From Candidatus Pelagibacterales bacterium (GTDB taxonomy: Bacteria; Pseudomonadota; Alphaproteobacteria; TMED109): a stretch of 6,942 nucleotides of DNA. The DNA lies in NCBI GenBank assembly GCA_002684605.1, contig NYVM01000090.1, forward strand, positions 1 to 6,942. Direction: 5' to 3'. Positions 5,803 to 6,866 of this stretch are shown here, one piece after another. Each line of letters opens with the position of its first letter. Position 1 is the first letter of the stretch. A model generated the notes under the pieces. The model saw only the letters and a list, made by a program, of their open reading frames with translations, made no database searches and was not told the origin of the DNA. Both the position numbers and the translations under genes were made by a program.

Positions 5803-6866
5803 TTAGAAAGTGGTGGAAGGAACAAGTTGTTTATCAAATTTATCCAAGATCTTTTTACGATTCTAATAACGACGGAATAGGGGATCTTAATGGAATAATT
5901 TTAAAGTTAGATTATTTAAAATTATTAGGTGTTGATACCTTATGGATTAGCCCTCATTTTGATTCTCCTAACGACGATAACGGTTACGATATCAGAAATT
6001 ATAAGAAAATAATGGAAGAATTTGGTACCATGGAGGATTTTGATTTATTATTAAGTGAAGTACAGACTAGAAAAATGAAATTAATCATAGATTTAGTTGT
6101 AAATCATACAAGTGATGAGCATAATTGGTTTATTGAAAGTAAATCTTCAAAAAATAATAAGTATAGAGATTATTACATTTGGAAAGCTGGTGATAAAAAC
6201 CATCCTCCAAATAACTGGACTTCTTTTTTTGGAGGTTCTGCATGGGAAAAAGATCCAATTTCTAATGACTATTATTTACATTATTTTTCTAAAAAACAAC
6301 CTGATTTAAATTGGGAAAATAATAAAGTTAGAGAAGAGGTTTATGAAGTTATGAAGTTTTGGTTAGATAAAGGAATTGATGGTTTTAGAATGGATGTTAT
6401 TCCTTTTATTTCCAAAGATCAAAACTTTAATAACTTATCAAAAAATGAATTTTCAAATCCTGAGAAAGTATATGCTTTAGGACCAAGGCTACATGAATTT
6501 TTGAAAGAAATGAATTCCAAGGTTCTTTCCAGATATGATATTGTTTCAATTGGTGAGGCATTTGGAATTAATGAACAAACGATGATAAAATTGTCAGATC
6601 AGAGAGAAAAGGAATTAGATTTAGTTTTTTTATTTGATATAATAAGAATTGGTCGTGAGAATTGGATTCAAAACAAATGGAATTTAGTTGAATTAAAAAA
6701 ATTATTTACTGTTCAGTCAAATGTTGATGAGTTTCATTGGCCTACAGTTTTTTTAAATAACCATGACAATCCAAGAAGGATTAGTAATACATATAACAAA
6801 AGCGTTAGGAGCATTTTGTTTAATACCTTCTGCTACTTGTTTAATAATTTTCAAATTAATACCTAA
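5799..6866 (+). CDS. GH13 oligo-1,6-glucosidase/alpha-glucosidase, 3' truncated by chimeric join
   Basis: The first ~329 codons encode a retaining alpha-glucosidase that cleaves short alpha-glucans. The N-terminus WWKEQVVYQIYPRSF is typical and fixes the start. Conserved elements: calcium loop DSNNDGIGD (21-29); region I DLVVNH (98-103); QPDLN (167-171), typical of the oligo-1,6-glucosidase subfamily; region II GFRMDV with nucleophile D199; region III IGEAFG with acid/base E253; region IV NNHDNPR with H322/D323. Val200 after the nucleophile is associated with alpha-1,6 activity in this family. No signal peptide is seen, so it is cytoplasmic. A full enzyme is about 540 residues: the last barrel strands and the C-terminal beta domain are missing. 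Codons after about 329 read antisense mdh and are not real protein. Linked to DUF2256 by an ATGA overlap. Confidence 0.93.
   Translation: MIRKWWKEQVVYQIYPRSFYDSNNDGIGDLNGIILKLDYLKLLGVDTLWISPHFDSPNDDNGYDIRNYKKIMEEFGTMEDFDLLLSEVQTRKMKLIIDLVVNHTSDEHNWFIESKSSKNNKYRDYYIWKAGDKNHPPNNWTSFFGGSAWEKDPISNDYYLHYFSKKQPDLNWENNKVREEVYEVMKFWLDKGIDGFRMDVIPFISKDQNFNNLSKNEFSNPEKVYALGPRLHEFLKEMNSKVLSRYDIVSIGEAFGINEQTMIKLSDQREKELDLVFLFDIIRIGRENWIQNKWNLVELKKLFTVQSNVDEFHWPTVFLNNHDNPRRISNTYNKSVRSILFNTFCYLFNNFQINT
6777..6788. other. Chimeric junction between GH13 gene and inverted mdh fragment
   Basis: GH13 homology runs to about NNHDNPRRIS (ending near 6785). Malate dehydrogenase homology, on the opposite strand, runs from the window end to ITNP (ending at 6777). 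The shared AGGATTAGTAAT fits both genes, as IS-N on one strand and ITNP on the other. Beyond 6777 the mdh frame continues only as antisense GH13 (NP then SWIVMVI and a stop) instead of the expected NPLD. Microhomology with inversion is the classic pattern of amplification chimeras, though a real inversion is not excluded. Confidence 0.8.

Follow-up and report, generated by a model that had tools for sequence, protein, structure and literature searches.

A flavobacterial GH13 gene very probably joined to SAR11-type DNA in a chimera between two organisms

An open reading frame that begins as a GH13 gene and ends on the antisense strand of a malate dehydrogenase gene (mdh) raises the question of whether two genes of one cell were broken in a single rearrangement, or whether the sequence unites the DNA of different organisms. 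We addressed this question for the window, the whole stretch of 6,942 nucleotides analyzed here, by comparing the identity of each side of the join with the same close relatives. On the evidence of these comparisons, the last 164 bases are very probably an artefactual join of the DNA of two organisms, not a real gene rearrangement. The features of the window, from a Pfam and ORF scan and from the comparisons named in brackets, are as follows.

2-406, minus strand: TspO/MBR gene
437-877, minus strand: ORF without a Pfam match
870-2102, minus strand: FtsX/MacB-type permease
2099-2722, minus strand: ABC ATPase beside the FtsX/MacB-type permease
2930-3133, minus strand: small helix-turn-helix regulator
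3619-4032, minus strand: MotA/ExbB-type protein
4098-5662, plus strand: sulfatase, split over two frames
5799-6866, plus strand: GH13 ORF, very probably chimeric
5799-6778, plus strand: GH13 alpha-glucosidase, native, cut at residue 326 (PF00128 and six open relatives)
6778-6779, no strand: junction between native base 6778 and putatively foreign base 6779 (divergence of all six relatives)
6779-6942, minus strand: putatively foreign internal piece of a SAR11-type mdh, oriented toward the junction, with ITNP as its last motif (PF00056)
6777-6866, plus strand: false C-terminus made of residues 327-355 plus the stop codon, antisense to mdh (L001 protein compared residue by residue)

Collinearity was evaluated with the six loci (L001-L006) that are most similar to the window among 80 taken from 124 found. 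The nearest relative, L001 (isolate AG-313-I14), is collinear from window base 1 with 96% DNA identity, and L002 is likewise collinear from base 1 with 92% identity. The L003 record is short and spans the window from position 4240 onward, and L004-L006 align in two or three collinear pieces each, with 77-81% identity. Judged from these alignments, the window left of the junction is genuine flavobacterial DNA. Neither a tRNA nor, at the gathering threshold, an Rfam family was found in the window, and the Pfam scan of ten of its ORFs revealed no transposase or integrase. In the sulfatase gene (4098-5662; PF00884), a homopolymer run around position 4744 carries the frameshift that splits it, and L001 has an unbroken counterpart of 521 aa; either a real polymorphism or a sequencing error would account for this. 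The permease at 870-2102 carries a loop with many histidines and acidic residues, which differs from L001 in sequence and length and possibly binds metal.

The GH13 ORF (5799-6866) matches PF00128 at 2e-112 over profile positions 1-339 of 446, in agreement with the first-pass annotation, which had described a catalytic-domain gene cut before its end. The motifs FRMDV, IGEAF and NNHDN, which we take to be those of the three catalytic acidic residues of GH13, start at residues 196, 251 and 320, all ahead of the break. The native gene belongs with the GH13 alpha-glucosidases and oligo-1,6-glucosidases: the window holds the catalytic domain with its three acidic residues, and lacks the end of the domain, the C-terminal part and all else of the protein past residue 326. 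Structurally characterized chains of sucrose isomerase (4hox, 1m53) and oligo-1,6-glucosidase (1uok) match a full-length relative, P0001, over most of its length.

Intact copies of this gene, which the first-pass annotation had suggested seeking in related genomes, are present in all six relatives, where 549-555 codons are open from the matched start (in L006, what aligns to the GH13 start of the window is not a methionine). DNA identity up to the break is 96% with L001 and 77-92% with the five other relatives, and the GH13 of the window is 77-99% identical to theirs. Compared with the L001 protein of 549 residues, the ORF has two residue differences before residue 327 and differs at most residues thereafter, placing the end of the native part at residue 326. 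A false C-terminus, previously given as 26 residues, is indeed present, and comprises 29 (327-355). The best protein relative, P0001 (99% identical, 549 aa), represents a cluster of 52 sequences on 28 contigs. The 120 listed of the 7997 relatives scored each cover 93% of the ORF and none reaches its tail; because the protein database searched with the chimeric ORF was clustered at 90% identity, another entry sharing this join may be hidden inside the P0001 cluster.

Beyond the junction, the minus strand of the tail matches PF00056, the lactate/malate dehydrogenase N-domain, over profile positions 66-122 of 141, bearing out the earlier recognition of an mdh piece on the opposite strand. The 164 bases encode 55 malate dehydrogenase residues up to ITNP, which cover part of the N domain alone and none of the C domain. 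For the database search with these residues, the query was padded with X so that full-length proteins would qualify, and the best 120 of 8000 scored matches were listed. Among the 120, 53 of the 55 residues are identical in 111 matches, 54 in four, 52 in four and 49 in one. The tail thus resembles the SAR11 type of alphaproteobacterial malate dehydrogenase, with about 96% identity over its 55 residues, and differs from it in being an internal fragment only; full-length enzymes such as P0122 and P0228 have 318-321 aa. The sole named organism among the 120 listed matches is Pelagibacterales bacterium SAG-MED17 (P0228), and the ten best plasmid matches (72-80%) are all alphaproteobacteria by name. 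At the protein level, and with this one named match, the source of the tail is most likely a SAR11-type (Pelagibacterales) alphaproteobacterium. At the DNA level the tail discriminates poorly: its best match among the compared loci is L093 (74% identity across 158 bases), and mdh genes native to flavobacteria align with it in shorter pieces at about 69-77%. Searches for SAR11 mdh DNA extending over the break confirmed none of four pattern matches in a viral contig scan with P0226, found no match to a degenerate DNA pattern, and returned 35 records from the phages collection, all with less than 60% identity.

Of the six relatives that share the GH13 gene so closely, five yielded a malate dehydrogenase of a different kind, 44-50% identical to the tail; the mdh search of the genome of L001, the nearest relative, gave none, a point against a chimera with foreign DNA. 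The tail DNA matched in none of the six genomes, and a 342-base query spanning the join matched all six on the GH13 side only. Sampling more widely, mdh was found in 294 of 299 genomes from the family of genome G002, with at most 60% identity to the tail among the matches listed. Within the genus of G002, all 13 genomes have an mdh above the NF004863 cut-off, with seven more matches below it. Five of six further genomes searched with the tail mdh matched, at 46-49%. In 395 genomes from the class of G009, a group that is probably not alphaproteobacterial and to which we attach no weight, identity was at most 60% among the matches listed.

A tail that is about 96% SAR11-like and about 50% identical to the mdh of sister genomes, lying beside a gene with 99% identity to its counterpart in the nearest sister genome, shows two sources, and the foreign mdh piece in turn argues for a chimera between two organisms over an inversion inside one genome. 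The two sides match unrelated taxa (flavobacterial on the left, SAR11-type alphaproteobacterial on the right), and each is found whole elsewhere, the GH13 in the six relatives and P0001, and the mdh in P0122 and P0228. The view that the join is an artefact is upheld by the different origin of the two sides. The view that it broke two genes of one genome is contradicted by the low identity between the tail and the relatives' mdh, and the argument that a cell would hardly lose both genes in one event does not arise with an mdh from another organism. It had also been proposed that a second mdh elsewhere in the genome would indicate a real rearrangement; this reasoning fails, since five of the six relatives have an mdh of their own that differs from the tail, as a chimera with foreign DNA predicts.

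The join can be located to the base. Identity with the six relatives is 128-163 of 165 over the bases up to 6776, and 46-49 of 164 over those from 6779, for which base composition alone predicts 47. Between these stretches, the bases AG at 6777-6778 are common to the window and all six relatives, and are followed by TG in the relatives vs GA in the window. Because agreement continues through 6778 and divergence begins at 6779 in all six, the break lies at 6778/6779. The join between GH13 and mdh noted in the first pass is thus real in the sequence, with a different breakpoint from the one proposed at 6777-6788. Those 12 bases were said to fit either gene, but match the GH13 of the six relatives at 7-9 positions, and an exact microhomology of 12 bases was rejected on these counts. 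The same loose similarity explains why BLAST extended the alignment to 6787 in five of the six relatives. In 12-mer pairs drawn from both pieces, at least eight matches occur in 0.9%, or in 5% given two shared bases; against this background, there is at most weak homology at the break, although the similarity is mildly above chance and to that extent counts against a chimera. The exact overlap is 1-3 bases: positions 6778-6779 have to come from the proline codon of the mdh ITNP motif, and what follows varies with the mdh codons of the source organism.

The best explanation of these observations is a join in which SAR11-type DNA, in no particular orientation and with 1-3 bases shared by chance, extended the right end of flavobacterial DNA. 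Such a join would have formed in a DNA molecule or a read, by ligation, by a template switch during amplification, or as a chimeric read at the contig end. We favor this origin over the assembly graph because k-mer assemblers cannot join sequences on 1-3 shared bases, and because the 164-base tail has about the length of one short read, if the end of the window is the end of the contig. An assembler-made misjoin at a word shared in the assembly graph is accordingly the doubtful form of a between-organism chimera: usual k-mer or overlap thresholds far exceed 1-3 bases, and both the exact overlap and the similarity at 7-9 of 12 positions fall well under them. What speaks for it is the frequency with which a single tool, GUNC, flags chimerism in marine assemblies, at about 11% of metagenome-assembled genomes vs about 1% of single amplified genomes in the figures given by PMC11247762.

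If SAR11 DNA was present in the sample as well, its amplification, by intermolecular multiple-displacement amplification (MDA) or PCR, may tentatively be considered as the step at which the two organisms' DNA was joined. For joins of more than 10 kb, the data presented in PMC1855051 describe mostly intermolecular events of about equal orientation (69 inverted vs 58 direct), with complementarity of at least two bases in just 34.8% and 27.6%, and this low complementarity agrees with an overlap of 1-3 bases. From sequence, however, a join made in amplification has the same look as a ligation chimera or another chimeric read. MDA acting within one genome is a different matter. In that account, which the first-pass annotation favored as an inverted join at short homology, a displaced strand end re-primes nearby on the same genome, so that GH13 is joined in inverted orientation to the cell's own mdh. 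This is the main type of MDA chimera in the counts reported by Lasken and Stockwell (2007; PMC1855051), where 406 of 475 chimeras are inverted, 337 of the 406 join segments less than 10 kb apart, and complementarity of at least two bases is seen in 76.8% of the intra-genome inverted cases. The gene order in relatives, which had been put forward as a check together with intact mdh, also suits it in part: two relatives carry mdh and GH13 on the same strand of one contig about 37 kb apart (at 12.5 and 50.0 kb on C8 of G004, and at 153.1 and 116.4 kb on C1 of G005), so that an inverted join fits the orientation seen. Moreover, the title of the nearest relative, isolate AG-313-I14, has a name style that we take to be that of a single-cell genome.

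The native mdh genes of G004 and G005 are, however, 44-46% identical to the tail, and across the relatives the mdh piece reaches 44-50% whereas the GH13 reaches 77-99%. In addition, a spacing of about 37 kb exceeds the 10 kb range that holds those 337 inverted chimeras. Identity and distance both contradict a join within one genome, which is most improbable and was rejected as the mdh piece is foreign relative to the mdh found in five of the six relatives and to the matches listed from the 299 family genomes; with a partner from another organism, the word inverted has no meaning here. The locus shares with MDA chimeras the meeting of two segments at a very short overlap (1-3 bases, varying with the source mdh codons, compared with two or more in most inverted joins within a genome), and differs from their typical form, as described in PMC1855051, in joining different organisms instead of nearby segments of one genome. 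Real horizontal transfer, with a SAR11 mdh piece inserted very recently into a living flavobacterial cell and splitting its GH13, would as a private event be compatible with the sequence, but has very little to commend it. All six relatives keep an open GH13 frame, the ten scanned ORFs include no transposase or integrase, and the mdh piece is internal, truncated on one side by the break and on the other where the window ends. Transfer was rejected on the mdh of the 299 family genomes, which is at most 60% identical to the tail among the matches listed.

Chimerism between organisms, in the form described by PMC11247762, likewise places sequences of distant taxa within one assembly. The example given there is a whole foreign contig, whereas a between-organism chimera at this locus would have its join inside one sequence, located to the base. 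Scanning IMG/VR for relatives of the mdh piece, we found that two of 37 pattern matches (L093 and L094) encoded one, and both look like chimeras too. In L093 (1320-2693), genes resembling succinate dehydrogenase precede a SAR11-like mdh, which within one ORF gives way in frame, around residue 251, to a phage-like sequence resembling PhoH, with gene names by ORF reading; this sequence is probably a between-organism chimera as well. In L094, at the contig end (4458-5051), a tape-measure-like phage ORF, also named by ORF reading, runs into a SAR11-like mdh piece, with the ORF reading FDVADGLAKG at the crossover vs FDVASGLAKG in SAR11-type mdh.

Nothing in the sequences shows a gene loss in either cell, and the join is very probably without biological function. 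Its importance is one of data quality only. Entered into a database, the ORF would bring along 29 false residues at its end, and the contig might be taken for a flavobacterium whose sugar enzyme is broken, or for one with a SAR11-like mdh. What tells an inversion within one genome from a chimera between organisms is the identity of each side of the join to the same close relatives.
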